From Pseudomonas poae (GTDB lineage Bacteria; Pseudomonadota; Gammaproteobacteria; Pseudomonadales; Pseudomonadaceae), in assembly GCA_028869255.1 (NCBI GenBank), contig CP110972.1:3167001-3231000 (forward strand): 64,000 nt of DNA, written 5' to 3'. The notes below the pieces were generated by a model. The model saw nothing but the letters and a program-made list of their open reading frames with translations. It did no database searches and was not told the origin of the DNA. Position numbers and translations under genes: made by a program. Shown here in pieces: positions 541-57,060 of this stretch; the first letter of the stretch is position 1, and each line of letters opens with the position of its first letter.

Positions 541-1346
541 TACATATCCGGTTTTGCGGTAACGGCGGATATTGGTTCCGCTCTTACAGCGGGTCACTTT
601 TGGAAGAGCGCCAAAAGTAACCAAAAACGCTCCGCCCCAACACTCGGCACCTCGCCTCCGGCTCGGTGTGCCCGCACGCAGACTTGAATCCGTGGGCCGC
701 CGCGATGGGCCATCCATGGCCCAGCGCGGCTAACCCGGCGTCCTGCCGGGTTACCCACGGATTCAAGCCTGCGTGCGGCCAGCGTGTTTTACGGGGCGCC
801 TGAGATCAAGATCAAAAGCGCAAAAGATCGCTGACTTCGTCAGCGCAAAGGATGTAAGGGCCAGATCAAAAACAAAGCAAAGCACGGCGGCCTGACAGCC
901 GACCTCGGTCAAGTGTGGGAGCTGGCTTGCCTGCGATGCAGACACCTCGGTACATCAGGCAAACCCAGTTGATGTCATCGCAGGCAAGCCAGCTCCCACA
1001 GAAAAGCCGATCTACTGCGGACCCGCTTTTGATCTACACCACTCAGGTCGGCTACAAGGCCGCCGTGCTCTGCTTTTGACTTTGATCTGAGACGCCCCGT
1101 CAATCACGCTGGCCGAACGCAGGCTTTGGAGCGTGGGCAACCCGGCAGGACGCCGGGTTAGCCGCGCTGGGCCAAGGATGGCCCATCGCGGCGGCCCACG
1201 CTCCAAAGCCGGAGTGAGGGCACACCGAGCCTAGGCGAGGTGCCGAGTGATGGGGCGAGGACTTTTTGCTTACTTTTGGGTCCTCCCAAAAGTGAGTCGC
1301 TGTAAGAGCGAAACCCTAGGCGGCCGTTACCGAAGTAACGGATATG
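541..1346. repeat. Large palindromic intergenic element, copy A
   Basis: The ends are inverted repeats: TACATATCCGGTTTTGCGGTAACGG on the left and TTACCGAAGTAACGGATATG on the right. Inside the ends are TTCCGCTCTTACAGCGGGTCACTTTTGG-like arms and two GC-rich foldbacks in opposite orientation (about 672-778 and 1118-1210). Each foldback has an outer stem enclosing two hairpins. The centre holds a CGCTGACTTCGTCAGCG hairpin (about 828) and a REP doublet. The short open frames here recur in all copies and in several phases, so I treat them as non-coding. Other copies are at 18504, 26576 and 56217. Confidence 0.85.
915..999. repeat. REP doublet (REPIN) nested in element A
   Basis: Two inverted copies of the GTGGGAGCTGGCTTGCCTGC core face each other across about 45 bp. 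This is the usual REPIN arrangement mobilised in trans by RAYT transposases in Pseudomonas. It lies in the centre of palindromic element A. Confidence 0.85.
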
Positions 1347-1440
1347 CCCTCCCCCATACAGACGCGCAAAACAACAACCACAACGCACAAAACACTCAAC
1401 AATGATCACCAAACGGCTTTCTGTAAAACCAGCCAATACC

Positions 1441-1470
1441 AAAAAAAACGGGGCGATCACCGATCGCCCC
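1441..1470 (-). terminator. Rho-independent terminator of pdtA
   Basis: The stem GGGGCGATC/GATCGCCCC has a 3-base loop and, on the minus strand, is followed by eight T. It lies 33 bp past the pdtA stop codon. Confidence 0.85.
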
Positions 1471-1502
1471 AAATAGTTACATCGAGAGGTCTTTCAAAAT
1501 CG

Positions 1503-4500
1503 TTACAAACTGATCTGCTTACGCTCCTCATCCGTCAATCGTGCCCGCGCCTGGTCGCTCAACGGGCCGGCACCGAGCACCTGCACCGGGCTGTCAGGGT
1601 TGTAGCCCGAAGTCTTCCGAGCCTCTTGCGGCTCACGCTGCACCGGCTCAGAGCCAAAACTCAGCACCTCCACGGTGACAATCGACGCCCGCCCCTGCTT
1701 GGCCGCCGCCTGCTGGCTACGCGCCGCATCTTCCGCCGCCTGGGACGCCGCCGCCCCCGCCGCGCTGGCCGAACTCATCGCCCCGGTATTCACCGCTGCC
1801 GACACCGGCACCCCGGACGACTTGCCCTGGGTCTGGATGTTCGCCGCGTTCACCACCCGCAATGCCGCGATGTTGATGTTGCCGGACACTCGAATACCCG
1901 CCTCACCCGCATCGATGGTGCCCAGCGGCGCAATCAGGTCGATATCCCCCGCCGGTACTTCCGGGATCGGGTTGAGCGTGGCGATCCCCGCACCGGTACT
2001 CGGCACCGATGGCGACAGGCTCACATTGCCCCAGTTGTCATAGACACGCTTGGGCGGCGTGTACACCACGGTGGTCTTGGAGCCACGACCGGCGTTGATA
2101 TCGCCCTCGGCGGTCCACCCCATGATCGAGCCGCCGAAGGTGGTCATAATGCGGCTCTGGCCAAGCAGGATGCTGCCCATGGAGTACAACTGGATATCGC
2201 CGGTGCCCTGGGTGATCACCCCAGCGGTGGACGGTGGCGCCGCCCCTTCGATGCCGAAGGTCTGGCTGCCGCCCGGGGTGAGCATCTGGATCGAGCCACC
2301 GAAATTGGTGTGCACGCCCGCGCCGCCGAACATCGTGATATCGCCTTTGTAGGTGATCGGGTTACCGGCCACGTCCTTGTCCGGGAACAGCGCCGCAATC
2401 GCCACACGGCCACGCAGGTAACTGCCCTGGCGCACGCTGCCATCCTGGTTGTACTCGCGACCGGCGGCCTTGAGTTCGGCGAAGTACACATCCCGTGCGA
2501 AGATCCGTTGTTGCTCCGCCGGCAGGGTGGCGTAGTAGGCCCGCGCTTGCTCGGTGTCGCCGATAAACCCGAAGCGCTCGGCCAGCCAGTCGACCAGTTC
2601 GTGTTCATAGGTCTTGGCAACCTTGCTGCCCTGCAACGACTCGCCCGGTTGCGCGAGGTTGGCGGGGTTGAGGTAAGCCTCGACAAAGCGGCGGTAGTCC
2701 GGGCCGTTGGGGCCGACACCGGCCTGCATCACGATACTGGCGCCCGAGCGATTGTCGCCTGCCGCCACCGGACCGAGGCTGGTGACGCTGACCTTGTCCT
2801 CCATCAGGATAGTGCGCCCGGCCATCAGTTCCAGGGTGCCGGGGCCAGCGACCTGGAAGTTGCTGTAGAGGATGTCGCGCCCGGCCGAAACGATGGAGAC
2901 ATCGGTGGGGCTGTTATGGATAAACAGGTTGCCCATGGACGTTTCCTTCTGGAACCCGCTTACCGTGTCAAACAGGCTGCCGCTGCTGACGATATCCCGG
3001 CCTGCCATCATCCACACCGGCCCACCGCCCTCGAACCAGGTCTGGCCTTGATGCAAATCGCCCGGGTTAATCCCGAAGGTGATGATCCGCCCACTGCTGA
3101 CGCCTACCAGGTCGCCGGTCAATGCGTAGAAACGCGCCGCGGATGCCGGAGCATAGGCATCAGTCGATGCGCTGGCGGAGCCGAACACAAACAACGGCAA
3201 ATGGCGGACGTTGTCGGAGCTGCCGTTTGGCGAAAGGTTGCTGGCGACAGCCTCGATGCTGCTGCCAAGCCTGCCGACAAACGCCGGTTGCCAAGGCGTG
3301 GCCATGATCGCCGGGTCAGCCGCCGATTGGCTCACGAACATCCCGCCGGCATAGATCGAGTCATGGGCAAGCAACTGCAACTGGCTGTTGGCGCCCGGGG
3401 CGAGCAACAACGGGAATTTGTAGTCATTGTCGGTGCGTGACGAGCCGCCCGCCTTGCCGTAGTACAGGCTGCCGCTGGCGGCCGTCGCTCGCAGAATCGA
3501 CGGGTACACGACCGCCAGGTCAGAGGCCAGCCCCGTGGTATTGGGCGACAAGTTGCCACCGGCGGAAAACAGGTCGATGGCCGTGCGCGCGGTCCACAGC
3601 GAGAACCAACTGGTGCCCGGCCCGTGCTCTTCCCCCCTGACGAAGGATGAACTGTTGGGCAGCAGGACCCGGCCAGGATCGAGCACGCTCTGCAGCGCCA
3701 GGTCACCCAGGGTGCCCAGGCTGAACGTCGCATCACCCGGCACCAGCACGATGCCGCCGCGCATCAGCCCACGCGTGGCCTGCAACGCGTCGAACGCCCG
3801 CACTTCACCCGGGCTGTGGTCGGTACTGGCAATGCCGTACTGCAACTCGATCTGGCCCGAGGCCCCCGCCAGCAGTTGCGCATTACCGCGCAGGTTAACC
3901 AGCGTGCCGTTCAGGCTGCTGCTATCCAGGCTGCTCTCGGGGTTCAGGGCCCCACCGATATTCACCCGCAGATCACCGCCACCGGTCAGTTGCAGGCTGC
4001 CATCGCTGGCCACCCGCCCGGTGCTGCCGACCGCCAGCACCAAGCCCTGGCTGCGTGGGTTGACGTTGGCCGCCATGGCATTGCCGGCCAGCGTGCGCAG
4101 CATCCCGGCGTCACCGCCTACCCGCACATCCACGTCACCGCCGCCCAAGGTACCGAAACCGGTGAAGCCTACCAATTGGTCCGCCGCGCCGGTCGCGGTA
4201 TAGCTGCCGAAATTGATCCACCAGGCCGTTGGCTGGGGCGCCCCGCCGGTATCGACGGTGCCGCTGCCTTGACGCCACAGCCAATTGCCGACGCTGGCTG
4301 AATCGCTCCCCACATCCAGAGGGTTCGGTCGCCCCGGCGCGGAAGCCGTGGCGTTGAGGATATTGCCCGTCAGGTTGCCCCCAACCTTCAAGCTCAGGTT
4401 GCCCCCGGCTTGCGGGTACCAGGCGCGGTACAGGCTGGTGGGGCTAGCATTGACGAATTGCTCGAAATAGCTGCCCTCGTCGTTCAACACCGTCTTGCCC

Positions 4501-7500
4501 AGGCCCTGGGACTTGGGCTGGTTGTAGGGGTCGCCCTCAAAGGTCGTGGCAGACGACGTGCCGGCGGTGTACACCCCGTACAGCGAGTCCATGCTCAGGT
4601 TGCCGGCACTCAACAACTCCAGGTCGCCGGTGCCGGTGCGGATCACACTGAACCGCGTCGCAGCGGGTGAGGCCGCGAAGTTCTTGGCCGATTGGGCAAG
4701 GCAATAGCTGGGGTTGTCCGCGCAGAACTGCGCAGTGGTCGTGCCAAATTGCGCCAGGAACTCATCGGTGACCGCAGAGCCAAGTGTCACGCCAAGGTCG
4801 GCCAGGTCGGCCGCTGCCTGGGCGGTCCAGACGAACGAGGGTTTCACCGCGCAGTACTCCGGCGAGCCTGCACAGAAGTCGGCGATCGGCCCACCACCCA
4901 ACTCATCGAGCAACGATTGTTCGATCGGATCACCCACTTTGACGTCGATGCCCAGGCTCGCCAGCAGCTCCACCCCGGCCGCTGTCCATCCCTGCACGGC
5001 CTGGGACGGCATTTCCTTGGCGAACATGCCGTAGTGAGTATCCGCCAGGCGCAGGTCGCCGGTACGGGGATGCGGTTGCAGCAGCCGACTGTCGGCCGCC
5101 TCGGTGTCGGCACCCGCCACCAGCCGCAGCGACCAGGACTGCGTGCCCTCGGCCAGCATCGGTGCAATGGCCCAGTTCTGGCCCTGGCGGCCCGACTCCT
5201 CGGGACGCAGCTGGACCGATGTCGCGTCGTTGAGCAACTTGACGTTGGTACCGGAAGGAATCAGTGCGCCCTTGGGCAACAGCAAATCGCTGGCAAGGGT
5301 CACCACGTTTTGGGTGGGGCCAGGCGCCTGGAAATTCTGCGGCAACGGCACGCCCTTGGGCCAGGTCATTGCCTTCAATAAGGTGTTCTGGGTCAACAGG
5401 CTACCGGCCTCCAGTTGCGAGCCACTGACCAGGGTTTGCGCCTGACTCAGCAAGGTACCCGCGGCAAACAGCACGTTGCCCGCGCCGTCGAGCACCGCCG
5501 CCGCCAACACGGTACCGGCAGGCAGCACCAGATCCTGGTTGAGGGTGGCACGCACCGGCAAACGGGTGCCCGCGCTCACGCCGATGGCGGTAATCGGCAG
5601 GTCGTAGTTCAGCACCACACCCGCCGGGAAAGCCGTGCCGGTTGCCAGGCTCACACCTTGCCCCGGCACCACGATATCGCCGCCGGTGAAGTCAACCCCC
5701 GGCAACAACACCCAACCCTTGTCATCCACCGTCTCCGGCGGCGGTGCGAAGCCATCGTTGATACTGCCGTAGATGCTCAGGTCGCCACCCGCCCGCAGGG
5801 TCAGGCTTCCCGCCTCGGTCTTTTCATGGGTCGGCGACCTGAGGCTGGCGTAGCGCAAGCCGGACAAGTCCAGGTCGCCCTGCACCACCAGATCGCCGTC
5901 CGGGGTCTTGCTGATGATTTCCACGCCGGGGCGCAGATGGAAGGTGTCGCCGTAAGTGTCGTTGTTCAAACCGGCGAGCTTGTTTTGCAACAGATTGGTG
6001 TTGAGCAGCGCGGCCTCGATGAAGTCATTGCTCAGTTTACTTTTGCCGTTCAGATAATCCTGGGTGATCTGCTGATACGGCCTGCCGCTGGTGGTGGGGT
6101 CGGTTTTCTCGGGTGCATCGTCATAGGTTGCCATGGCGTTGAGCGTGATCGAGCGAGCGCCCTGAATGTCCACGCGGCCATGCGCGTCGATGGCAATGTC
6201 GTTGATCACGCCCGAGGCGTTGGCCAGGCGAGGTGCGTTGAGCTCGAGGGTGCCGCGATTGCGCCCATCATTACCGCTGGCGGCAGTACCGTGGCGCAGG
6301 TCGATGCGTGCGCCTTCGGCCAGGGTCAGCAGGCCATTACCGGAACCCAGCACCACCATGGCCCGGTTCGGCGAGTCGATGATCTTGCCGTAGCTGTCTA
6401 CCCGCAACTTGCTGCCGTGGGCGTCCAGCACCGCGCTGCCGTCGAGGGTCAGGCCGTTCTTGCCGGCCAGGCTGATACTGCCGACACGTTCGCCGCTGGC
6501 GTCCACCAGGCCGGTAACCCGCAGGCTGCCGTTGTCCACCGAGACATTGATAATGCCCGCCTTGAGGCCATCGCCAATGCTCAGGTCGCCCTGTTTGAGC
6601 TGGAAGCTGCGCGCACCGAATACCTGGCCGGCGTTGAGGCGCTGGTTGAGATCGGCGAACTGCTGGTCCAGCGCACCACTGCCGCCCAGGCGCTGTGCCT
6701 GGATTTCCACGCTGCCGGCCGTATAGGGCATCAAGGTGCCGCCGGCATCGTAGTAGCCGGTGCTGCTGCCGAGGATCCGGCCCTGCAGCTCGACAATACC
6801 GCCTGCCACATCCGTAGCAACCGCACGCAGTTTGCCGGCCTGGTTATGTTTGGCCGACAGGTCGATGGTCGAGCCCGCTGCCTGTCTGACATTGCCGCTG
6901 CGGCTGTCGAGCAGCACCTCGCCACCCCAGCCGTATTGGGTGAGATCGTTGAACACCACGGAGCGACCAGCGACGTCGATCAACGCGCCGTCCGCCAGTA
7001 CCACATCGCCCCGCGCACCCAGGCTGAGCTTGCCGCTGGGCAACACCACCGCCGTGGCGACACGCACGCTGTCGCCTTGCAGGGACAGCTCGGCCCCCAT
7101 GCCGTTCGCGGCACCCGACGCACCCGCCGAGGCTGCCACATCAATCGCGCCACCCACGGTGATACGGTTGATCGAGCCGGCTTCACCGGTCATCAGCGGA
7201 GTAAGAATATTGAGATTGCCGCCGCTGTACTGGAAGCCTTTGACCGGGTCATAACCGGTCAGGCTCTGGTACACCGACAGGGTGCCCTTGTGGTTGGCGG
7301 TGATGCGCTCGCTGGCATTCAGGTTGACGTTGGCAAAGCCCAGGGCCAGACGGTCGAAGGTCTTGGTGGTGCTGGGCTGGGCAAAGGCGCCGTAACCGAA
7401 CTCGATGCGCTCGGCGTTGATATCCAGGCGCCCGCTGCCGGTACCGGCACCGCCGCCAATCACCGCACCGGGTGCCGCCTCGGCGCCCTGCCAGATCAGG

Positions 7501-10500: not shown

Positions 10501-13500
10501 CGGCCATGGCCGACCGCCTCGACCCTTTCCGAGTCGGCCGTGGCCAGCCCCTTGAGGCTGACGCTGCCACCCCACGCGTTAAGCGTGCCGTTCAGGGTGA
10601 GCTGGCCGACGCTCAGCAGGTTGATCGACTGGCCCGGATCGACATTGATCACCGCGCCCTGGCCCACGCTCAACGCGGTGCTCGCCATCTGCGCGGCCGA
10701 AGAGAGCACATGGCCGGCGGTCAGGCTCAGGCTCGCGCCACCACGCTGAGTCAGTACGCGCTTGGTCGCGTCCTCCTGATACAGCGGCGGGGTCCAGGGT
10801 TGCAGGGCACTCGCGGCATCACTGCCGGTCAGCGAGGCAGCGGCCTGTTCGCGGGCACGGTAAACCGGCATGTTCACATCAACCTGGGTACCGTCCGCGA
10901 CGATCAGCCCCTCATTACCGGTGATGTCGTAGGCCGAGAAGCCTTTGTTGAAAAAGTCGCCGGCCAGTTGCAGGGTAGTGGCGTCTGCCGCGCCCTCGCC
11001 GATCAGCACCTTTTGGGCCTGCAACGCCAAGGTGCCACCGCCTTTGACTCCATAGCCGCGCACTTCGCCACCCAGGGCGAGTGACCCCAGGCCGCCGAGG
11101 TTCACATCGCCGCCCTTGCCGCCGCTGACCTGGCCGTCTTCGGCAACGGTGGCGCCGGAGGACACATCCACCAGGCTGCCGGCGCCGAGGTTCACCGCCA
11201 AGGTGCTGCGCAGTGAGACCTTGCCGCCGTTGATATACGCCACACCGTGGCGCAGGGTCGGGTCTTGCGCGAGGTTGTTCCAGCGGCCACTGGCGTCCAG
11301 CTGGACACCGCTGGCTACGTCGAGGCGCCCGCCACCCGCCAGGATCACATCACCCACCGCGTTGCCCTTATCAAGGTCAACCTGGGTGAGGATGCTGCCC
11401 GCGTTGATGCTGCCGCCATGGGCGGTGAGGCTGGCGTTGATGGCGACGCCTGGCCCGAACAGGGTGATATCGCCGCCGTCCGCCACCTTGAGCGCACCGT
11501 TGACCATGATCTGCCGCTTGGCGCCGACCTTGACCGCGCCCAGTTGGTAACCATTGAGCTGGTCACTGTCGAGCACCAGCATGCCCTGGCGATCCGTCGG
11601 CAATGCGCTGGTGAGGTCCAGGCCATCCGCGATTTTCTGGGTGTTGCTGTCGATCAGCACCTGGTCGGTGGTGCCGCTCAGGGCATAACGCAGGGTGCCG
11701 GTGGTTTTGTTGTAGATCGGGAGGTACTGGCCAATGATCAACTGCGCCCGCTGGGCCTGGGCCTTCTGGGACTGCAGGTAGCCGTCGAGGTTGATATTCG
11801 GCGCCTGGGTCTGGCGATCGCCCTGGAATACATCGCTGATCAACTGGCCTTCGAGCACCGCGCTGGTGGTACCGACCACCAGCTTGCCGGCATCGCGGCC
11901 CACGGTGTATCCGTCCTCGTAGCGACGTTGCGCCGCGATCAACGGGTTGTAGTAGTAATCCGTCTGGTCCCAGCGTGCGCTGGTGTCCTCATAGCCCTTA
12001 TAGAAACCCGAGTAGAGAATGTCACCGGGGGCCTTGGACAGCTCAAACAACTGGCCGTTGGGGCCCTTGAGCCAGCTCTGCTGGATGTACCCTGCCTGCA
12101 CATCCACCGTGCCGCCCGACAGGTTGATCTGTGCGCCCTGTTGGGTCACTACATCCTTGCCGGTAAAGGTCACGGTGCCGCCCTGGGCCATCCACTCGCC
12201 GACGGAATGGCCCTGGGTGCCGAGGTAGCCGCCGACTTCCAGCAAGCCACCGGCGGTGTACCAGCGATCCGTCGCGTAGCCGTTGGTGCCGGCGGGCACA
12301 AACACCAGCTCGCGCAGGTCGACCCATACGTCGTTGTTGATCAGTTGCCCGTTGTCCCGGTTGATCGGTGCATCACGCTGCTCGTTGCCTTGCACGTTGA
12401 TCTTGATGTTGTTGGTGTCCATCGCCACCTTGACGCCGATAGCGCCGGACACGTCGATCATCGCCCCATCACGCACCAGGCTGCGCCCGGCGGCGCTGAC
12501 CGCTACCTGGCCGCCGGTGGCCAGGGTGATCGAGCCTTTCTGGAAGTCCACGGTGGCGCCGCTGACGATCTCGATCCGCGACTGGTCGGTGCGGTCGGCT
12601 ACGGTGCTGAGGTTGTTGAACTGGCCGGTGATCAGGTTGGAGGCAAGGCCGTCGAACTTCACCAGGCCGGCGGCCTGCTGGCTATTGAGGGCGGTGCTGG
12701 CGCTGGCGTCCAGCAGGACCGCCGTGGTGCTGCCCTCGCCCAGGGTCACGCTGCCGGTTTTATCGGTTGCCGCGTTCAACAAATGCACCGTGCCGCGGGT
12801 GTCCACCGAGGTACTGGCCAGGGCCACGCCGTTCTGCTGCACCTGGTGCCCGGTGAGGGTGATGTCGCCGGTTGAGGCCAGGATCAGCCCGTTGTTGGTG
12901 ACTGTGCCGGCGGTGCTGCCGGCCTTGAGGCTGGTGGCCACTTCGCTGCCGCGGGTAGTGGAACGGTCATTGCCGGCGGTGCCGACGCCCTTGCGGATAT
13001 AAAAGCTGTCGCCGGCTGCCAGGGTGGTCTGGCCCTTGGCGGTAATGATCGTACCGGCGTTTTCGACTTCCGAACCAAGCAACAACGTATACCCACCGGA
13101 GTCGGTGGAGGTCGCAGCCTGGTGGGTCTGGATCAACGCCCCGCGCTGCACCTCGACCTTGCCTGCCGCGTCAGTGAAGGTTGCCTGGGTACCATTGGCG
13201 TCCACATAAATGCCACGCTGGGTGAACTGTTCGTCAGTGATACTCGCCGCCGCCGCGACCAGGTTGCGCACGTTGACCTGGCTGGTGCCGCCGAAGACCA
13301 CGCCGTTACGGTTCATGAGCATCACCGTGCCGGCGCCGTTGATCTGGCCCTGGATCTCGCTGGGCCGCGCATTGGGGTCGTTGACGCGGTTGAGCAGCGC
13401 CCAGTTGGACTGCTGCTGGAAATCGACGCGGGTGTTGCGCCCGACGTTGAAGGTCTCCCAGTTGAGGATCGCCTTGTCGGCGGTCTGCTCGATGGTCACG

Positions 13501-18503: not shown

Positions 18504-19181
18504 GTACATATCCGTTTTTTTGTAACGGCCTCCTATGGTTCCGCCCTTACGGCGGGTCACTTTTGGAAAAGAGCCCCAAAAGTAACCAAAAGGGCTCTTG
18601 CCCCACCACTCGGCACCTCGCTTAGGCTCGGTGTGCCCGCACGCAGACTTGAATCCGTGGGCCGCCGCGATGGGCCATCCTTGGCCCAGCGCGGCTAACC
18701 CGGCGTCCTGCCGGGTTGCCCACGGATTCAAGCCTGCGTGCGGCCAGCGTGGTTTAACGGGGCGCCTAAGATCAAGGTCACGGTCAAAAGCCTGGATCAA
18801 AAGATCGCTGACTTCGTCAGCGCAAAGGATGTAAGGGCCAAAAACAAAGCGCTTTTGATTTACACCACTCAGGTCGGCTTTCAGGCCGCCGTGCTCTGCT
18901 GTTGATCTTTTTGATCTTGATCCTGGGCGCCCCGTAAAACCACGCTGGCCGAACGCAGGCTTTGGAGCGTGGGTAACCCGGCAGGACGCCGGGTTAGCCG
19001 CGCTGGGCCATGGATGGCCCATCGCGGCGGCCCACGCTCCAAAGCCTGCGTGCGGGCACACCGAGCCTAGGCGAGGTGCCGAGTGGTGGGGCGAAGACCT
19101 TTGGTTACTTTTGGGTCTTTCCAAAAGTGACCCGCCGTAAGGGAGGAACCATAAGCCGCCGTTACCGCAGCAACGGATATG
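18504..19181. repeat. Large palindromic intergenic element, copy B, between hxcQ and hxcR
   Basis: Same architecture as copy A: terminal GTACATATCCGTTTTTTTG / CAACGGATATG, arms with TTCCGCCCTTACGGCGGGTCAC, a left cloverleaf (about 18638-18743) and an inverted right cloverleaf (about 18952-19054). This copy has no central REP doublet and is the shortest (678 bp). The left outer stem reads TTGAATCCGTGGG and the right one TTTGGAGCGTGGG, each with a matching partner strand. It interrupts what is a contiguous hxcQRS run in P. aeruginosa. Confidence 0.85.
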
Positions 19182-19196
19182 CCCACCAACACACCG

Positions 19197-19222
19197 CTAT
19201 CGCAGGCAAGCCAGCTCCCACA
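19197..19222. repeat. Single REP core inside the hxcQ 3' end
   Basis: CTATCGCAGGCAAGCCAGCT then CCCACAG is one REP arm between element B and hxcQ. Read on the minus strand it encodes the last residues of the HxcQ frame (LLWELACLR, then stop). Confidence 0.75.
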
Positions 19223-21573
19223 GCAGTACACAGCAGACCTCAAGGCCGCGCCCCCCAGAAACCGGCACCGCCCGAATCACCGCCCGCGGCCCCTGCTGCT
19301 GCCCAGCCCCCGGAATCGCCTTATCCACCGAAGGCAACTGCGGCGCCTGCACATCCGGCATCGCCCAACTATGCTCCGGCTGCAACCCACCCTGCGCCCG
19401 ACGCATAAACTCATAGCGATTGAGCGTAATACTGCGCCCCGCCCCACTGTCACGAATAATGTAGGGCCGCAAAAACACCATCAAGTTAGTCTTGCTCACA
19501 CTGCGCTTTTCATTACGAAACAACGCCCCCAACCCGGGAATATCCGACAACCAAGGCACCGCATCATTGCTCTGGCTATAGCCGTCCTGCAGCAACCCGC
19601 CAAGCACCATGATCTGCCCGTCATCCAACAAAATGCTGGTATCAATCGCACGCTTGCTGGTCACCGTCCCCGCCGCCACCGAAGCCCGCGCATCCACGGT
19701 GCTGACCTCTTGGTAGATATCCAGCTTCACCGTACCGCCCTCGGAAATTTGCGGGCGAACATTCAGCTTGAGCCCCACCTCTTCACGCTGCACCGTCTGG
19801 AACGGATTGTTGCTGGTGCCCCCCGCCGCCCGTCACATAACTGCCGGTGATAAACGGAATGGTCTGCCCCACAAAAATGCTCGCCGCTTCGTTGTCCAGG
19901 GTCAGCAGGTTGGGCGTGGACAGCACATTGGTGCCGCCCTTGCTCTTCAAGGCGCGGGCCAGCACCTTGAGGTCGAGCACCTTGCCGATCCCGGGGATAT
20001 CCACGGTGCCGTTCACCAGTCCCACGTTCAGGCCCTTGGGCAGCACATCAATGCTGGTGGGGCTGGCGGGCGTGCCATTCACGCCGCTGCCGCCCAGGTT
20101 GACCCCGCCGAAACCGCCCTTGCCGCCGAGGTTGCCGGCCTGCCATTGCACGCCGAACTCGGTGGCATCGTCTTCACTCACCTCCACGATCAGGCTTTCG
20201 ATCACCACCTGGGCGCGGCGTTGGTCGAGCATGTCGATCACTTCGCGCAGGTTGCGGTACAACGGGTCCGGCGCGGAGATCAGCAAAGTGTTGGTGGTGG
20301 CGTCCGCCTGGATAGTGACGCCGCCGGCGCTGAATGCGCTGTCCTGGTCGCTGGCGGTACTGCCGGTGCTGCTGGTGGTGCCGGTGGTCTGCCCATACAC
20401 CGGCTGCACGCCGCTGCCGGTGGGTGTGCCGCTGCTGTTTTGCGCAGTGCTGGTGCCTTGGGTGTTCTTGCCATTGCCGCCCATGGCGCTGAGCTTGCCC
20501 CGGGCGTCGTCGCTGACGCCGGAGTCACTCTCGCCGGTGAGCAACCCGCGCAGCGACTGGGCCAACTTGCCCGCCTGGGCATTGCGCAGGTACACCACGT
20601 GCATATTGCTCGGGTTGCTCTGGGCATTGTCGAGCTTGTAGATCAGGTTGCGCGCCAGCTCCGTACGCTCGGGGCTGCCGGAACGAATGATGATCGAGTT
20701 GGAGCGCGGGTCACCGATCACGTTGATCTTCTGGGTCTGGTCGGCACCCTGGGTTTCCAGCAGCTCGGAGACCATGGCGGCGATGTCCACCGCGATGCCG
20801 TTCTGCACCATCACCACGTCAGTGTCGATGGCGCTGGGGGTGTCGATGCCATTGATGATCTGCGCCACACGCGCCAGGTTTTCCGCATAGTCGGTGATGA
20901 CAATACTGTTGTTGCCAGGGTAGGCGTTGATCGGGTTGTTGGGCGACACAATGGGGCGCAGCACCGGGATCAGGTTCACGGCGTTCTCATACTGCAGGCG
21001 GAAGGTGCGCGTCTGCATGCCGCTGCTGCCGGCGCTGTAGATCGGGCCGCCGAGCAACTTGGCATCGGCCTCCGGCACCACCTGGGCCACGCCGCCCACA
21101 TCCACCACGCTGAAGCCCTGCATGCGCAGCGCCGCCAGCAGCATGTCGTAGGCCTGGTGCGCCGGTACCTGGCCTTCGCTGACCAGGGTCAGGTTGCCTT
21201 TTACCCGTGGGTCTACCAGAAATTGCTGGCCGGTGGCGCGTGACAGGGACCGCACCACGGCCTGGATATCCGCGTCGACAAAATTCAGCTGCACCGGCTG
21301 ATCGCCCAGCGGGTTGCGCGCTTTGACGGCTGCGGGGGCTTGACCACGGGCGCTGTTGGTCACCGGGTGTTGTACACGCGGTTTGGGCGGCAGTTCGCGC
21401 TGGCGCTCGAGTACGCTCTCGCCGCTGCGCTGGGTCTCTGCCAGCGGCTGGCCGAGTTCACTGTCCACCAGCAGCGGCTTGGTGGACTGCGAGCTGCTGC
21501 ACGCGCTCAACGCCAATAGCAGCAGCGGCGCGACCTTACGAAAAGGCGCAGGGTTGGGGACTGACCACTTCAT
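19197..21573 (-). pseudogene. hxcQ: Type II secretin HxcQ (GspD), lipoprotein; one-base frameshift in a G6 run
   Basis: This is the outer-membrane secretin ring of the Hxc system. The N-terminus has a lipobox, LSAC with Cys25, fitting the known self-piloting lipidated HxcQ. N0 and N1-N3 domains cover residues 80-470, followed by the secretin domain. The frame breaks at 19819-19824, where six C (G6 in the gene) shift TGGGGTSNNPFQTVQREEVG into a stop 17 codons later. With five G the frame runs on through REEVGLKLNVRPQISEGG and VPWLSDIPGLGALF to a stop at 19197, giving about 791 residues. The C-terminus runs into a REP sequence, so its true end is uncertain. An assembly error is more likely than decay because every partner gene is intact. 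It overlaps hxcZ by 4 bp (ATGA). Confidence 0.9.
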
Positions 21574-26575: not shown

Positions 26576-27436
26576 GTACATATCCGTTGTTTGGGTGATG
26601 GCTGGAATTGGTTCCGCCCTTACGGCGGGTCACTTTTGGAAAAGAGCCCCAAAAGTAACCAAAAGGGCTCTTGCCCCACCACTCGGCACCTCGCCTCCGG
26701 CTCGGTGTGCCCGCACGCAGACTTGAATCCGTGGGCCGCCGCGATGGGCCATCCTTGGCCCAGCGCGGCTAACCCGGCGTCCTGCCGGGTTACCCACGGA
26801 TTCAAGCCTGCGTGCGGCCAGCGTGTTTTACGGGGCGCCAAGGATCAAGATCAAGATCAAAAGCGCAAAAGATCGCTGACTTCGTCAGCGCAAAGGATGT
26901 AAGGGCCAGATCAAAAGCAAAGCAAAGCACGGCGGCCTGACAGCCGACCTGAAGCCATACTCGGTCAAATGTGGGAGCTGGCTTGTCGGATCGCCGCACC
27001 GCTGCGAAAGCATCAACTGGGTTTGCCTGATGTACCGAGTTGTCTGCATCGCAGCGATGCGGCGACCCGACAAGCCAGCTCCCACAGAAAAGCAGATCTA
27101 CTGCGGACCCGCTTTTGATCTACACCACTCAGGTCGGCTACCAGGCCGCCGTGCTCTGCTTTTGACTTTGATCTGAGACGCCCCGTCAATCACGCTGGCC
27201 GAACGCAGGCTTGAATCCGTGGGCAACCCGGCAGGACGCCGGGTTAGCCGCGCTGGGCCATGGATGGCCCATCGCGGCGGCCCACGGATTCAAGCCTGCG
27301 TTCGGGCACACCGAGCCTAGGCGAGGTGCCGAGTGATGGGGCGAAGCGTTTTTGGTTACTTTTGGCGCTCTTCCAAAAGTGACCCGCTGTAAGAGCGGAA
27401 CCATAAGCAGCCGTTACCAAAGAAACGGATATGTAC
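26576..27436. repeat. Large palindromic intergenic element, copy C, between hxcW and vreR 3' ends
   Basis: The ends GTACATATCCG and CGGATATGTAC are perfect inverted repeats. The left cloverleaf (about 26715-26820) and the right one (about 27205-27305) both have the TTGAATCCGTGGG / CCCACGGATTCAA outer stem, unlike the right copies in A and B. The centre has the CGCTGACTTCGTCAGCG hairpin and an extended REP doublet. The element fills the space between two convergent stop codons, 19 bp and 11 bp away. Confidence 0.85.
26971..27084. repeat. Extended REP doublet nested in element C
   Basis: Inverted GTGGGAGCTGGCTTGTCGG cores enclose a longer inverted spacer (TCGCCGCACCGCTGCGA against TCGCAGCGATGCGGCGA). 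It is a variant of the doublets in elements A and D. Confidence 0.82.
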
Positions 27437-46578: not shown

Positions 46579-46580
46579 GG

Positions 46581-48103: not shown

Positions 48104-48133
48104 GGCATATATCTCCAAATGACTGACTGACCC

Positions 48134-49388: not shown

Positions 49389-49481
49389 TGTTATTGTTCT
49401 CCGCAAGCGTGGGGTAACAGGTGCTTTGCGAAGAAACGATAGAGCGCGGGTAAATCCCCCTCAAGGGCTTGAATCCATTCC

Positions 49482-49531: not shown

Positions 49532-49549
49532 ACGCACAAGGGGCCTGTC

Positions 49550-50599: not shown

Positions 50600-50627
50600 A
50601 ACCCACTGTCTAAACGCAGGCAGACAG

Positions 50628-50655
50628 GTGGGAGCTGGCTTGCCAGCGCCTACAT
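50628..50655. repeat. Single REP core
   Basis: GTGGGAGCTGGCTTGCCAGC then GCCTACA. The same 27-base unit recurs at 51302-51328, so the DUF6124 locus is flanked by two direct copies. Confidence 0.75.
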
Positions 50656-50879
50656 AGAGCGCATTTCACTGTTTGATCGGCGGGGCTGGTGGCATTTGGT
50701 CATGGTTTGTAAAAGGCCAGCAAGGCAGGTCCCTTTTAATTGCAGGACGTTTCCTAGACAATCCCTGCCGCCTTGTGCCTGCTGGAATCGGTGGCTAGTC
50801 TGCGATCCGTCACTGCCAATTCAGTGATCGGGTTTAGTCGCCCGGATTTGGAGCAGGCGCATCGCCCATGAAGCTTTAT

Positions 50880-50955
50880 GGTGGCTGTGCGCAGGGCGCC
50901 CTTGGGCGCGCCGGATGCTCCTGACCGGTCGACTAACCTGCGTACAGCCGCCACC
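50880..50955. other. Structured leader of the DUF6124 gene: nested stem-loop and alternating TTAGTCG boxes
   Basis: GGTGGCTGTGCGCAGG (50880-50895) can pair with CCTGCGTACAGCCGCCACC (50937-50955), enclosing a GGGCGCCCTTGGGCGC hairpin. TTAGTCG occurs at about 50833 and 50961 on the plus strand and once inverted at about 50930. I see no gene in 50600-51007; besides REP this structure is all it holds. From memory, similar leaders precede other DUF6124 genes in Pseudomonas; this was not checked. Confidence 0.55.
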
Positions 50956-51007
50956 CTACGTTTAGTCGCGAAGCGTGTCGGCTCCATGATCATTCAGGAG
51001 CTACACA

Positions 51008-51301
51008 ATGAATAAGCCCGTCCCCGATCCACCCCTCAGTTCGGCCAAAGACCGCGCCGCCTTCAACCGCGCCATCGACCATTACCTGCCCCCTCAGGGT
51101 GTGCAAATCGAAGACCTGAGCTTCGAAGATGCCCTGCTCTACACCGCCAGTGTGCTCGACAGTGCCTCGGCGACCGCGCTGGATTGCGGTGAAACGCTCA
51201 CAAGTCCCGAGCGGGCGAAAATTCTGGCGGTGTGGCATCTGCTGGAGATTGCCAAGACCACCGTGGATCGCTCCATCGAGTGCCTGAAACCCACTGCCTG
51301 A
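51008..51301 (+). CDS. DUF6124 family protein (formerly DUF3077)
   Basis: The 97-residue acidic soluble protein has the pattern of this Pseudomonas-specific family: FNRAIDHYLPP, then EDALLYTASVLDSASATALDCGETLTSPERAKILAVWHLLEIAKTTVDRSIE, an all-helical domain. No function is known. CAGGAG precedes the ATG. It is preceded by a strongly foldable leader and flanked by direct REP copies, which suggests a gene-plus-leader cassette. Confidence 0.85.
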   Translation: MNKPVPDPPLSSAKDRAAFNRAIDHYLPPQGVQIEDLSFEDALLYTASVLDSASATALDCGETLTSPERAKILAVWHLLEIAKTTVDRSIECLKPTA

Positions 51302-51328
51302 GTGGGAGCTGGCTTGCCAGCGCCTACA
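51302..51328. repeat. Single REP core
   Basis: The same unit as at 50628, in the same orientation. It starts at the DUF6124 stop codon and ends 9 bp from the stop of the sigma-54 activator gene. Confidence 0.75.
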
Positions 51329-51336
51329 GTTGAACC

Positions 51337-53294
51337 TCAACCGCCACGAAAATCTGCGGCATTCAGCCCAAACCGGCTCATCTTGTTATACAGCCCGCCC
51401 CGCGACACATTCAGTTGCCGGGCGGCCAGGCGGATATTGCCGCCGGTAGCGGTAAGCGCGGCGACGATGGCGTGCATTTCGTGGCTGCTCAAATCCTGCG
51501 CGGGCTGCGGCTCGTAGGGACGCAGCGGGGTTCGCTGCCTGGTTTCCAGTGGCAGATCGGACGCCTGGATCAGTTCACCCATCGCCAGGTTGGTCGCCCG
51601 TTCGATGCTGTTTTCCAGCTCGCGCACATTGCCCGGCCAGCTGTAGTCCGCCAGCAACTCCAGCGCCTGCGGCGAAAACCCTGCACCGTCTTACGCAGCG
51701 AACGGGCACAGCGCGTGAGGAAGTGCCGCGCCAGCAGCGGGATGTCTTCGCGGCGCATGCGCAGCGGCGGCACGGTCAGGTTCAGTACGTTGAGCCGGTA
51801 GTAGAGGTCTTCGCGAAACGCGCCTTCGGCCACCGCCTGGCTGAGGTTGCGGTGGGTGGCGGCGATGATGCGCACATCCACTTGGCGCGAATTTTTTGCA
51901 CCGACGCGGGTAATTTCGCCTTCCTGCAACACGCGCAACAAACTGACTTGGGCGTCGAAGGACATATCGCCGATTTCATCCAGAAAAATCGTGCCGCCAT
52001 CGGCCAGCTCGAACTTGCCCGCCGAGCCGCCACGGGCCGAGCCGGTGAAGGCGCCCTCGACATGCCCGAACAGCTCGCTTTGCACCAAGTCCCGTGGGAT
52101 CGCGCCGCAGTTGACCGCCACAAATGGGCCACTGGCGCGGTCGCTGGCGTTATGGATGGCCTGGGCAAACAGCTCCTTGCCGGTACCGCTTTCGCCGAGG
52201 ATCAGGGTAGTGGACTCGCTGCGACTGGCGATGCGCGCCAAGTGCAACGCGTCCTGAATCGCTCGCGAGGTGCCCTGGATAGTCTCAAAGGTGTAGCGCG
52301 CCTGAGTGCTGATAATGCGCCGGGTGATTTCGCGAATCCGCCGGTTTTCGCGCAGCGACACAATCACCCCACCCTCCTCCAGCGGGCACACCGACACCAG
52401 GCAGGCAAGCTGGCTGCGGTCCTGCAGGTGGAAGGTGCAATCGAGGTCACGCACCGGCTCACCCAGCACGTTCAACTCGCTGCGGCCCAGGCGCTGGAAG
52501 GGACTGCCGATCAGTTCCAGCCCCACCCCGAACAGTTGCCGGGCATAGCGGTTAAGGGCCTTGATGCAGCCGCGCTGGTCAAGCACCACCAGCCCTTCGT
52601 TGAGTACTTCGAGCACGGCTTGCTGTTCGGCCAGCAGCGCTTGCAGGGCCATTTGCCGTGAGACCGCATCGGCAGCGGCCTGCACGGTGCCAAGGGTGTG
52701 GAAGTGAAACCAGCCGGGCTCAGCGGTAAGGGTCAGCATGGCCAGGGTCTGGCCCTGGGCATTCTTGATCGGCGCAGCGGCGCAGTGCATGCGACGGCGG
52801 CGCAGGCCGCTGCCGAAGTTTTCCTCGGCCAGCACGTACACCAGGCGGTCTTCGGCCAGGGCCACGCCGGTGCAGTTGGTGCCTTGCACCGACTCCAGCA
52901 GGCGGCTGCCGATGGGGGTGATGTCCAGCCCGCAGAAATACAGGGTAGTGCCGTCGGCATCGGTCAGGTTGATATGGCCTCGGGGGTTGTAGGCCAACAA
53001 ACCGCGCATCACCTGCGCCGCTGCGGCGATCAGCACGCGATGCTCGGCAACGGTCGCCGCCAGGGTCTCGGGGGTGACGAAACGGTAGTGGCTGTCATCC
53101 GGGTCGATACCCGCGTCGACGCTGCGCCGCCACGAATCCCAGATCACCTGCCGCACCTCCCCCGGGCGCTCGACCTGGCCGGCCAGGCATGCGTGCCACG
53201 CCTGCTCCAGCGCTGCCACCGGGCCCCCGTTCAGCGAGGCCGGGCCCAGGGCCGTCAAGTAGTCGAGGTCTTGCACGTTGAAGGCCATGCTCAT
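51337..53294 (-). pseudogene. Sigma-54-dependent activator (AcoR-like: GAF, PAS, AAA+, Fis HTH); one-base frameshift in a T4 run
   Basis: The restored product is about 652 residues. An N-terminal GAF-type sensor region (about 60-200) and a PAS-like segment (about 225-320) precede the AAA+ domain, which has Walker A GESGTGKE near 365, the sigma-54 contact motif GAFTGS near 413 and Walker B GGTIFLDEIGDM. The Fis HTH is at the end (GGNIRLAARQLNVSRGGLYNKM). At 51675-51678 four A (T4 in the gene) break the frame at VQGF; one more T restores VQGFSPQALELLADYSWPGN. It lies divergent to the mocA-like operon, which has a sigma-54 promoter, and is its likely activator. The start is uncertain (53294 or 53288). 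An assembly error is probable. Confidence 0.88.
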
Positions 53295-53305
53295 CAAGGG
53301 GCATC

Positions 53306-53357
53306 CATGTTCATGTTTTTGACATGTCAGTATAGGCATGTCATCAAAATGAACATG
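53306..53357. promoter_or_regulatory. Inverted pair of candidate upstream activator sites
   Basis: CATGTTCATGTTTTTGACATG (split as CATGTTCATG / TTTTTGACATG, 53306-53326) is repeated in inverted form at 53337-53357, sharing CATGTTCAT at one end and GACATG at the other. The pair lies about 50-100 bp upstream of the sigma-54 promoter, where enhancer-binding activators usually sit. Confidence 0.55.
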
Positions 53358-53405
53358 TTTTGTTTAGTAAATTTTATAAATCCATGTTTATCAATGACTT
53401 ACAAA

Positions 53406-53422
53406 TTGGCACAGCCTTTGCT
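53406..53422 (+). promoter_or_regulatory. Sigma-54 promoter of the mocA-like operon
   Basis: TTGGCACAGCCTTTGCT matches TGGCAC-N5-TTGCW exactly, with GG and GC 10 bases apart as the -24/-12 elements require. It lies 57 bp before the ATG at 53479, opposite a sigma-54 activator gene. Confidence 0.88.
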
Positions 53423-53478
53423 CTTAGCCCTTTGCCCACCAGAACGTCCTGGGGCCAACAATAAAAAGGGGTTACTTC

Positions 53479-54483
53479 ATGAGTACACAAAACATCCGCC
53501 TGGGCTTGATCGGTGCCGGCCGCATGGGCAGCTTCCACGGCCTGACCGCTGCGCGGCACATTCCGGGCGCCTGCCTGGCCGCCATCGCCGACCCCACCCC
53601 GGGCCAGGCCGCACGCCTGGCAGCGGAACTCGGAGTGGACAAGGTGTACACCGACCCCCAGCAGTTGCTCGATGACCCGGATATCGATGGCGTACTCATC
53701 GCCGCCCCCGCCCGCAGCCACGCCGAACTGGTGATCAGTGCCGCCCGCGCCGGCAAAGGCATCTTTTGCGAAAAACCCATGGCCATCACCCTGGATGAAG
53801 CCGACCGCGCCATCGCCGCCGCTGCCGATGCCCGAGTGCCGCTGCAAGTCGGTTTCAACCGGCGTTTTGCCAAGAGCTTCCGCGCCGCCCACCTCGACGT
53901 AGCCGCCGGCCGCATCGGCACGCCGCAGCTGTTGCGCTCGCTGACCCGCGACCCGGCACTCAACAACCCCGCCAACTCGCCGCAGTGGGTGATTTTCCTG
54001 GAAACCCTGATCCACGACTTCGACACCCTGCGCTACCTCAACCCGGGTGCCGAAGCGGTGCAGGTGTATGTGATGGCCGATGCGCTGATCGCCCCGGCCT
54101 ACAAAAGCAAAGGCTTCCTCGATACCGCCGTGGTCACGATCCGCTTCGACAACGGCGCCATCGCGACCGCCGAGGCCAACTTCCAGGCCGTGTACGGCTA
54201 CGACGTACGCGGTGAAGTATTCGCCAGCGCAGGCATGTTGAGCATGGGCAGCCTCAACGACTCCGACCTGGTGCGCTACCTGGCCCAGGGCATCCAGGCC
54301 GACACCCAGCGCCTGGACACCGACCTTTTGCGCGACGCCTACGTCGCCGAACTCAACCATTTTGCCGACTGCCTGCGCACCGGCGCGAAGCCGATGGCCA
54401 GCGGTGAAGACGCACGTGCGGCCCTGGCGATTGCCCGAGCGTGCATCGAGTCGTTCGAAACCGGCAAGGCGGTGGCCCTATGA
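53479..54483 (+). CDS. Gfo/Idh/MocA-family dehydrogenase (inositol 2-dehydrogenase / MocA-like)
   Basis: The 334-residue NAD-dependent oxidoreductase has the N-terminal Rossmann motif LGLIGAGRMGSFHG, the cofactor/catalytic EKPMAI, and the C-terminal Gfo/Idh domain with the catalytic pattern ETLIHDFDTLRYL (Asp/His). It resembles IolG and MocA enzymes that oxidise inositol or inosamine-type polyols. It is first in a sigma-54 operon with an isomerase and a rhizopine-type binding protein. Confidence 0.9.
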   Translation: MSTQNIRLGLIGAGRMGSFHGLTAARHIPGACLAAIADPTPGQAARLAAELGVDKVYTDPQQLLDDPDIDGVLIAAPARSHAELVISAARAGKGIFCEKPMAITLDEADRAIAAAADARVPLQVGFNRRFAKSFRAAHLDVAAGRIGTPQLLRSLTRDPALNNPANSPQWVIFLETLIHDFDTLRYLNPGAEAVQVYVMADALIAPAYKSKGFLDTAVVTIRFDNGAIATAEANFQAVYGYDVRGEVFASAGMLSMGSLNDSDLVRYLAQGIQADTQRLDTDLLRDAYVAELNHFADCLRTGAKPMASGEDARAALAIARACIESFETGKAVAL

Positions 54484-55259
54484 CCCCGTTCAAACTGGCG
54501 ATCAGCGCCGAGATGGTGTTTCTCGACCTGCCGTTTATCGAGCGCGTGAAACGCATCCATGCCCTGGGTTTCAGCGCTGAAATCTGGAACTGGACCCACA
54601 AGGACATCAACGCCCTGGCCGCCACCGGTGCCGACTTTACGTCGATGACCGGCTATATCAGCGGCACCCTCACCGACCCCGACGGCATCCGTCAACTGCT
54701 CGACAGCGCCCGCGAATCCATAGGGCTCGCCGAACGCCTGAACTGCCCCAGCCTCAACCTGCACGGCACCGGCCTGGGCGACAGCGGCCTGCCGGTGCAG
54801 CCCGTGAGCCAGACCACCGGCCGCATGTGGCTGAGCGCCTGCAAGACCCTGGAAAAAATCGCGCGCCTGGGCGAAGACGCCGGCCGCGTGTTCCTGCTGG
54901 AAAACCTCAACACCGAAGTCGACCACCCCGGCACCCCGTTCGCCCGCGCCGACGACACCCTGGCGCTGATCGAAGCCGTGGGCAGCCCGCACCTGAAGAT
55001 GAACCTGGACCTGTACCACGCGCAGATCGGCGAAGGAAACCTGATCGAATTGATCCAGCGCGCCGGCAGCGCCATCGGTGAGATCCAGGTGGCCGACGTG
55101 CCCGGGCGCAAGGAACCCGGCACCGGGGAAATCCACTACCCGGCCATTGCCAGAGCCCTGCACGCCATGGGCTACAACGGCGTGGTCGGCCTCGAAGGCT
55201 GGGCCAGCGGCGACAGCGAGCTGGCCCTGGAGCGTTTCCGCCAAGCATTTACCCTATAA
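54480..55259 (+). CDS. Hydroxypyruvate-isomerase-like (Hyi/OtnI) TIM-barrel isomerase
   Basis: The 259-residue protein has the Hyi-type pattern LLENLNTEVDHPGTPF (catalytic Glu), HLKMNLDLYHAQIGEGNL (Asp/His metal ligands), GEIQVADVPGRKEPGTGEI and VGLEGWASG with a second Glu. Hyi/OtnI and MocC/IolE-type proteins share this fold, so the substrate may be a keto-inositol or hydroxypyruvate-like sugar acid. The ATG at 54480 overlaps the dehydrogenase stop (ATGA). Confidence 0.88.
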   Translation: MTPFKLAISAEMVFLDLPFIERVKRIHALGFSAEIWNWTHKDINALAATGADFTSMTGYISGTLTDPDGIRQLLDSARESIGLAERLNCPSLNLHGTGLGDSGLPVQPVSQTTGRMWLSACKTLEKIARLGEDAGRVFLLENLNTEVDHPGTPFARADDTLALIEAVGSPHLKMNLDLYHAQIGEGNLIELIQRAGSAIGEIQVADVPGRKEPGTGEIHYPAIARALHAMGYNGVVGLEGWASGDSELALERFRQAFTL

Positions 55260-55278
55260 CAATAAAAGGAACAGCCTC

Positions 55279-56205
55279 ATGCATCGTCATTCATTGATCG
55301 CCGCCGTATTTTTACTGCTGTTCAGCCAATGGAGCTGCGCCGCGTATCGCATCGGCGTGAGCATTGCGCGGGTCGACGATAATTTCATGACCTACGTGCG
55401 CACCGGCCTGGAGGCCGCCGCCAAGCAACAGGACGTGCAGATCCAATTCGAGGACGCCCAGGGTGATGTGGTGCGCCAGCTCAACCAGGTCGAAGGTTTT
55501 CTCAATCAGAAAGTCGACGCCGTGATTGTGCTGCCGGTGGACACCGCCGCCACCGCCAACATGACCCGCGCCGCCGTCGCGGCCAGGACGCCGCTGGTGT
55601 ACGTCAACCGCCACCCGAATGAGCGCACGCTGCCAAAAGGCGTGGTTACGGTGGCCTCCAACGACATCGAAGCCGGTCAATTGCAGATGCGCTACCTGGC
55701 GGAAAAACTCGGCGGTAAGGGCAATGTGGCGATCATCATGGGCGACCTCGCGCAGAACGCCACGCATGACCGCACCGAGGGCGCCAAGCAGGTGCTCAAG
55801 GACTTTCCCGGGATCAAGGTCGTGGAGCAGCAAAGTGCCGAATGGCAGCGGAGCAAGGGTATGGACCTGACCAGCAACTGGCTGCTGGCGGGCACGCAGT
55901 TTGATGCGATTGTGGCCAATAACGATGAAATGGCGATTGGTGCGGCCATGGCGTTGCAGCAGGCGGGCAAGGCCAAGGGTGAGATTGCAATTGTCGGGAT
56001 TGATGGGTTGCCTGATGGTTTGGCGGCGATCAAGCGCGGGATGCTGACGGCCTCGGTGTTTCAGGACCCGAAGGCGCAGGCGACGCAGGCGGTGCAGGCG
56101 GCGGTCAAGATGATCAAGGGGGAGCCGATTGAAGCGCAGGTTTGGGTGCCGTTTGAGTTGATCAGGCCGGAGCAGGTGGGGGGGTTTGAGCAGCGGTATA
56201 GGTGA
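55279..56205 (+). CDS. mocB: Periplasmic sugar-binding protein of an ABC transporter (MocB/rhizopine or inositol type)
   Basis: The 308-residue protein has a signal peptide (about 1-22, LIAAVFLLLFSQWSCAA) and a Peripla_BP_4 fold with MocB/InoE-type segments: SIARVDDNFMTYVRTGLEAA, VDAVIVLPVDTAATANMTR, VYVNRHPNE, VANNDEMAIGAAMAL and VGIDGLPDGLAAIKRGML. It binds an inositol-like ligand. No ATPase or permease gene follows; palindromic element D starts 11 bp after the stop, so the rest of the transporter is elsewhere or lost. Confidence 0.87.
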   Translation: MHRHSLIAAVFLLLFSQWSCAAYRIGVSIARVDDNFMTYVRTGLEAAAKQQDVQIQFEDAQGDVVRQLNQVEGFLNQKVDAVIVLPVDTAATANMTRAAVAARTPLVYVNRHPNERTLPKGVVTVASNDIEAGQLQMRYLAEKLGGKGNVAIIMGDLAQNATHDRTEGAKQVLKDFPGIKVVEQQSAEWQRSKGMDLTSNWLLAGTQFDAIVANNDEMAIGAAMALQQAGKAKGEIAIVGIDGLPDGLAAIKRGMLTASVFQDPKAQATQAVQAAVKMIKGEPIEAQVWVPFELIRPEQVGGFEQRYR

Positions 56206-56216
56206 GGGGTTGGGGG

Positions 56217-57060
56217 CATATCCGTTTTTTTTGTAACGGCGGGTATTGGTTCCGCCCTTACGGCGGGTCACTTTTGAAAAGAGCCCAAAAGTAACCAAAA
56301 GGCTCTTGCCCCACCACTCGGCACCTCGCCTCCGGCTCGGTGTGCCCGCACGCAGACTTGAATCCGTGGGCCGCCGCGATGGGCCATCCTTGGCCCAACG
56401 CGGCTAACCCGGCGTCCTGCCGGGTTACCCACGGATTCAAGCCCGCGTGCGGCCAGCGTGGTTAATGGGGCGCCCAGGATCAAGATCAAAATCAAAAGCA
56501 GAGCACGGCGGCCTAGTAGCCGACCTGAGTGGTGTAGATCAAGAGCGGGATCCCAGTGGATTGGCTTTTCTGTGGGAGCTGGCTTGTCGGGTCGCCGCAT
56601 CGCTGCGATGCAGACACCTAGGTGTATCAGGCACACCGAGTTGATGCTTTCGCAGGCAAGCCAGCTCCCACATTTGAACCGAGGAAGGCTTCAATGCTCA
56701 GGTCGGCTGTCAGGCCGCCTCGCTTTGCTGTGTTTTTGCCGTGGCCCTTACATCCTTACCGCTGACGAAGTCAGCGATCTTTTGATCTGCGCTTTTGATC
56801 TCAGGCGCCCCGTCAATCACGATGGCCGAACGCAGGCTTGAATCCGTGGGCAACCCGGCAGGACGCCGGGTTAGCCGCGCTGGGCCATGGATGGCCCATC
56901 GCGGCGGCCCACGGATTCAAGCCTGCGTTCGGGCACACCGAGCCAGAGCGAGGTGCCGAGTGATGGGGCGAAGACCTTTTGGTTACTTTTGGGTCTTTCC
57001 AAAAGTGACCCGCTGTAAGAGCGGAACCATAAGCGGCCGTTACCGCAGCAACGGATATAC
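56217..57060. repeat. Large palindromic intergenic element, copy D, between mocB and GST 3' ends
   Basis: Terminal CATATCCGTTTTTTTTGTAA / CAACGGATATAC, TTCCGCCCTTACGGCGGGTCA-type arms, a left cloverleaf (about 56345-56452) and a right one (about 56826-56932), both with the TTGAATCCGTGGG outer stem. The CGCTGACGAAGTCAGCG hairpin module (about 56760) is beside the right arm and inverted relative to copies A-C. Both flanking genes end within 30 bp of it. Confidence 0.85.
56572..56671. repeat. REP doublet nested in element D
   Basis: Inverted GTGGGAGCTGGCTTGTCGG and GCAGGCAAGCCAGCTCCCAC cores lie across about 60 bp. The two arms come from slightly different REP variants. Confidence 0.82.

Follow-up and report, generated by a model that had tools for sequence, protein, structure and literature searches.

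The 64,000-nucleotide stretch of Pseudomonas poae DNA analysed here (the window) contains four intergenic palindromes of 0.7-0.9 kb, which raise the questions of whether they form a single family, whether that family has been mobile, and what its arms would do as RNA. An earlier note on the window had viewed them as one class of non-autonomous mobile palindrome, larger than REPINs or ordinary MITEs, with shared ends, two GC-rich foldbacks in opposite orientation, REPINs in the centre and no credible protein.

Anatomy and distribution of the palindromes

All four copies were found on reading the sequence, at 541-1346 (element A), 18504-19181 (B), 26576-27436 (C) and 56217-57060 (D). Self-comparison showed the whole length of A, B and C to be nearly palindromic, and D to consist of two 295-bp arms of 87% identity. 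Each element is built of inverted arms of about 260-290 bp flanking a variable core, the arms of one element being 84-89% identical and pieces from different copies 82-94%; in their size and shared arms the copies are indeed one palindromic family larger than REPINs. Their ends are common, as had been claimed, but take the form [C/T]ATATCCGTT and are not invariably ACATATCCGTTT. The two opposed foldbacks were confirmed and correspond to the Rfam family TwoAYGGAY (RF01731), which lies on the minus strand in the left arm and on the plus strand in the right arm of every copy: at 665-785 (57.7 bits) and 1115-1217 (47.8 bits) in A, 18630-18750 (53.8 bits) and 18942-19062 (54.9 bits) in B, 26704-26824 (55.4 bits) and 27192-27312 (59.1 bits) in C, and 56339-56459 (51.6 bits) and 56817-56941 (60.5 bits) in D. 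All eight arms (47.8-60.5 bits) exceed the gathering score of 43.

Element C, whose core between the arm limits (26838-27178) holds a REP pair, is situated between convergent gspJ-like and fecR-like genes. Element B, in whose core no REPs were seen by eye, separates a gspD-like from a gspE-like gene of the same strand; the secretin (gspD-like) gene beside it appears as two overlapping minus-strand frames, 19783-21573 and 19197-19829, possibly reflecting a frameshift. Element A (L013) does not appear to lie between convergent genes, both of its neighbours being assigned to the minus strand by a codon-based caller. Elsewhere in the window, at 50795-50958, is a phage-type control RNA, the C4 antisense RNA (RF01695), with the a1, b1 target family (RF03163) directly before it.

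Recurrence of these elements is not a matter of chance, since 40 with both arms (median length 837 bp) were delimited in the genome, a single contig of 6.80 Mb; the genome search scored 40 of 540 candidates, and its list is a lower bound. When 150 of 283 candidates were scored against RF01731, 85 hits were recovered, 84 of them over the gathering cut-off. Among hits less than 1 kb apart there were 39 adjacent outward pairs, none inward and one on the same strand, and one further outward pair, 1,004 bp apart, represents an element interrupted by a DUF6124 gene; 80 of the 85 hits thereby fall into 40 outward pairs. The DUF6124 gene (L031:905-1548) occupies the core of its element and separates the two REPs there. 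An identical GCTGACTTCGTCAGC hairpin and GGCGGCCT module is present in all 40 delimited cores, and the REPINs proposed for the centres are represented by a REP pair in 35 of 40 copies, three others having a single REP and two none. The view that no credible protein is encoded was upheld: five of the longest window ORFs gave no Pfam match above cut-off, and the longest ORF of the 40 copies has a median of 100 aa, as against 107 aa in shuffled sequences. A protein-coding element was rejected on these grounds, copy L036 being an outlier with an ORF of 218 aa (shuffle maximum, 173 aa). Nor was a transposase of their own found in the copies read. The four repeats belong to one non-coding palindromic family, with about 40 members in this genome, each member bearing the RF01731 motif in both halves.

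RF01731 matches were obtained at E <= 0.001 in 288 of 398 Pseudomonas genomes (247 over cut-off) and in 24 of 369 genomes of a class sample that included our own (16 over cut-off); 14 control genomes gave none, and P. mosselii and P. koreensis had no hit at E <= 0.001. Outward pairing recurs in P. protegens, P. chlororaphis and two distant gammaproteobacterial families: in seven genomes (our own and six more, for which some hits below cut-off were used) pairs closer than 1 kb comprised 64 outward, no inward and one same-strand, with outward pairs numbering 11 in G484, 4 in G761, 3 in G667, 6 in P. protegens FD6 and 1 in P. chlororaphis. At several of the distant loci that were read, RF01731 is flanked by an outer hairpin that, by eye, looks similar to the GTCACTTTT/AAAAGTAACC hairpin of Pseudomonas. 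Another distant gammaproteobacterium, G423, has 14 hits, all solitary, none being paired within 1 kb. Plasmids and phages have almost no copies. The whole C element matched one of 72,556 plasmid records, at four places, and a single arm matched one of 50,697 phage records; in IMG/VR the motif was found in six contigs, always within 1.35 kb of an end of the stretch examined. The sole plasmid record (L246) is P. antarctica pP27494_1, a non-mobilizable IncP plasmid whose best-matching place lies among type III secretion genes.

Conserved structure of the arms and a proposed RNA role

The structure of the arms was assessed in an alignment of 27. One was an arm of window element C, and the other 26 came from a set of 29 picked by clustering at under 90% identity, from which L077, L084 and an arm of L085 were omitted. 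Compensatory change, with both sides altered, was found in 29 of 65 base pairs, and 98.2% of cells were paired; neither the count of compensatory pairs nor the paired fraction was reached in any of 500 shuffles. Partners slid by 1-3 columns paired in 31-45% of cells, a comparison biased toward the structure because it was derived from the same alignment. Such change can also arise by template switching in palindromic DNA. The covarying pairs are distributed over the forked stem, the two hairpins with GGA loops and three outer hairpins. The arms thus carry, as expected of RF01731, a GGA in each of two apical loops borne by covarying stems, and the conserved structure reaches past that model by three additional covarying hairpins.

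The GGA loops are nearly invariant. We compared 131 arms, 80 from the 40 elements of our genome and 51 from loci L046-L155, which are neither independent nor all distinct, as those loci include the two arms of our own element D. Hairpin 1 reads CAGGACG in 110, CAGGGATG in 12, CATGGATG in 4 and either of two rarer forms in one each, the three remaining being a truncated arm and two arms that retain GGA. Hairpin 2 displays a GGA loop in 130, the single miss being truncated just past GGA, and the base preceding it varies (A in 61, T in 58, G in 11). Rsm/CsrA sites show this pattern, in which an invariant GGA of a hairpin loop adjoins a base that varies. Which strand would act as RNA is indicated modestly: pairs predicted on both strands include 18 G-U against 6 A-C on the outward strand, and the outward fold was the more stable in 22 of 26 arms. 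We rely on this count of shared pairs because each strand, folded alone, favours its own G-U pairs, as seen for the reverse strand (106 G-U against 18 A-C).

These features suggest that the element is an old, mostly static palindrome whose arms are predicted to be Rsm-binding RNA and which would have been inserted in the past without target duplication, a reading that we hold to be about evenly balanced between right and wrong. Read outward, each arm would form a chain, beginning with the forked TwoAYGGAY RNA and its two apical GGA loops and continuing through simple hairpins to the end of the element, so that a transcript crossing the entire element from either side would end with one sense-strand TwoAYGGAY arm. 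Such RNA would be produced by read-through of a gene whose stop codon often lies only about 14 bp away, and would be expected to bind proteins of the CsrA family (RsmA, RsmE, RsmI), with the effect either of a local 3'-end signal or of a titrating sponge summed across some 40 copies. CsrA is present in all 25 genomes checked (24 positive for RF01731, and G398), an expected result that does not discriminate.

Published work bears on this proposal from several directions. In the portions of the literature available to us, TwoAYGGAY is credited with two strong matches to the CsrA motif and CsrA sequestration is proposed, for Clostridia (PMC4333381), and RsmQ is described as binding AnGGA at the tops of hairpins (PMC9928087). 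The accessible text of a study of P. putida KT2440 lists, among RNAs bound by RsmA, RsmE and RsmI, regions beside copies of ISPpu8 and a long palindromic region that lies downstream of PP_3547, and leaves the meaning of both open; among the non-coding RNAs of that strain its authors see in rsmY and rsmZ the chief, and perhaps the sole, true Rsm antagonists, which counts against the proposal (PMC7937890). The KT2440 palindrome is likened to ours by description, both being long, intergenic and IS-linked, with the KT2440 RNA bound by Rsm proteins in vivo (PMC7937890, as far as its text was available). The insertion sequences differ, ISPpu8 being of the IS4 family and those in the present elements IS481-like. 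A link to KT2440 is also weakened by the lack of an RF01731 hit in P. mosselii, which we take to belong to the same species group. No such element was found in 400 kb of P. mosselii or in 20 stretches of 20 kb from three other genomes. At L343 (G182) there are two self-palindromic stretches of 67-70% identity, and short inverted repeats occur in both L343 and L344.

Occupied and empty sites, and changes within elements

The mobility supposed by the earlier note implies that related genomes should contain empty sites, and these were found at sites C and D. Among 80 loci related to site C, 12 (L052, L057, L058, L059, L060, L062, L064, L068, L070, L074, L080 and L109) have flanking matches no more than 30 bp apart with no arm between them; two arms are present in L066, L069 and L085 and one in L072, L106, L117, L119, L121 and L124, L046 leaves its contig within an arm, and the remaining loci show longer armless spacers or lack one flank. 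For site D, 30 loci were compared, one being our own genome; 26 of the 29 others are armless (L127 visible for only 160 bp past the gene), and an arm is present in L150, L153 and L155. Site B is occupied in many species. Occupancy of these sites in some species and vacancy in others implies that elements were inserted, or lost, between species. Joined flanks did not yield the exact insertion point, the named empty loci being too diverged.

Other expectations of mobility fared less well. A scan for target-site duplications of 2-9 bp, in which each end was allowed to shift by 0-5, found none in the 23 of 40 copies that were testable; the other 17 were set aside for having an end at odds with the pattern, and the best outcome was one match against 0.3 expected. 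The nearest relative, G398 (about 95% identical), was queried with 17 joined flanks, none of which gave a match spanning the junction. Both flanks were found for 14, always on two different contigs, and a single flank for three; since assemblies break at repeats, these split flanks are consistent, indirectly, with occupied sites. Arm-bearing loci of G398 number 30, and 23 of 45 loci in our own genome have a flank in common with one of them. Mobility is thus favoured by the empty sites of related species, and opposed, as a present activity, by the lack of target duplications, of a transposase of their own in the copies read, of all but a very few plasmid or phage copies, and of empty sites at the 17 places queried in G398. 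The elements are most likely old and at present mostly static.

These observations also bear on a possible but on balance doubtful alternative, that the family is purely selfish non-autonomous DNA, resembling long-armed MITEs or single-strand REPIN-like elements, whose hairpins would be signals for a transposase supplied in trans and have no function as RNA. Defined ends with inverted repeats, a copy number near 40 and vacant sites in related species would all be accounted for in this way, as would the tandem end units of L066 and L069 (about 37 bp each, seen by eye near 10700-10800). Less readily explained are the absence of a transposase from the copies read, the near absence of copies from plasmids and phages, the want of an empty site in G398 and the constraint on GGA, which fits an RNA-binding site; the lack of duplications in the 23 testable copies also speaks against it, though that lack would be expected of some single-strand transposons.

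In the preferred reading, that of old insertions with predicted Rsm-binding arms, existing copies would now change by inversion of the core, exchange between copies and insertion of IS elements. Eight sites of our genome have both flanks within a single G398 locus, and at 4 of them the core has the opposite orientation with respect to the flanks, as expected of recombination between arms; the flanks of G398 loci L156 and L166 each match two different copies of ours. Three elements (L021, L030 and L040) have an IS481-like element (rve and LZ_Tnp_IS481 domains) inserted at an equivalent place, the loop of one particular outer hairpin; by eye, this insertion is bordered by an 8-bp repeat at L030 and not at L021, L040 being seen in part. 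At site C in L085 (10530-11650), a small inverted-repeat insert lies in an outer hairpin of the right arm, with a short direct repeat seen by eye. The near-palindromy over 0.7-0.9 kb, the inverted cores, the exchanged flanks and the shared IS target might instead denote an element acting as DNA, such as a cruciform, recombination or chromosome-structure site, with no role as RNA. We consider this improbable, for long inverted repeats recombine in this manner whatever their function, and the invariant GGA and modest excess of G-U pairs favour the outward strand as RNA.

The relation of the elements to neighbouring genes was judged with a home-made caller based on codon usage, which is imprecise and may overstate distances. 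Gene 3' ends lie a median of 14 bp from the element (32 of 43 within 40 bp), and 5' ends a median of 136 bp (2 of 25 within 40 bp). The 20 bp outside the ends, read toward the element, contain 47% G and 33% T (80 flanks, three of them IS sequence); the corresponding figures after 32 other stop codons of the window are 24% and 21%. One element (L012:1497-2685) precedes an rsmI-like gene of the CsrA family by about 140 bp, and G398 has this gene beside a matching flank. The closeness to stop codons and the numerous stable hairpins could denote a bidirectional transcription terminator or a stabiliser of mRNA 3' ends, but this is very improbable, as just 12 of the 34 sites (of 40) that could be oriented are convergent, 19 being co-directional and 3 divergent, and element B separates two genes of the same strand.

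Relation to described families and wider meaning

The earlier note left undecided whether the repeat belongs to an already defined family. The inner module does, being RF01731; no description of that module as part of a palindromic repeat was found. The likeness to TwoAYGGAY extends to scores above gathering in both arms, two GGA hairpin loops and a printed prediction of CsrA binding (PMC2864571, PMC4333381), whereas the same accounts, in the portions available, do not present the motif as paired inverted arms of a repeat. Nor did we find a paper joining the two in open-licence PMC text, available in part, which included PMC3390384, PMC3116915 and PMC2267715. What is already in print, to the extent that these sources were accessible, is the RNA family (PMC2864571), the CsrA prediction (PMC4333381) and a set of intergenic repeats of P. 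fluorescens that includes R200 and R178 (PMC2718517).

The available part of the description of R200 gives a length of 320 bp and 60.25% GC, with 47 copies in SBW25, 8 in Pf-5 and none in Pf0-1 (PMC2718517). R200 was compared with our elements by size, GC content and strain distribution only; arm size and GC agree with R200, which is not, however, described there as a two-armed palindrome (PMC2718517, in part). The presence of RF01731 in P. protegens and its absence from P. koreensis fit the strain distribution of R200, if their kinship holds. Here we presume that P. protegens stands for Pf-5 and P. koreensis for Pf0-1. R200 may be one arm of the present element.

With REPINs and MITEs the elements have in common that they are dispersed, non-autonomous and intergenic and bear inverted repeats. 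They differ in that their arms of about 260-290 bp are not REPs, REPs being confined to the core, so that they are not pairs of REPs mobilised by a RAYT as REPINs are. As in MITEs, terminal inverted repeats occur without a transposase gene, but target duplications were not found in the 23 of 40 copies testable, and no autonomous partner with the same ends was seen among the copies that were read. The Rsm/Csr sponge RNAs (RsmY, RsmZ, CsrB) resemble the arms in motif and structure, through GGA in hairpin loops; the present elements differ in having two such loops per arm and many genomic copies.

More generally, in Gammaproteobacteria RF01731 might often be an arm of widespread palindromic repeats and not a solitary RNA. 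These outward-reading Rsm/CsrA-binding RNAs would proliferate within genomes, either parasitizing the Csr/Rsm network or serving it, and their copy number would set the degree of Rsm titration. We advance this tentatively, as a rather unlikely generalization. Our analysis places an orphan Rfam family in a genomic setting and offers it a candidate function open to test. If the RNA role is true, the copy number of a repeat becomes a variable in Gac/Rsm control, and the unexplained long palindromic Rsm targets of P. putida acquire a possible reading. Even without such a role, recognition of these elements would aid intergenic annotation in the genomes that carry them, which among Pseudomonas may be gauged from the 247 of 398 over cut-off.
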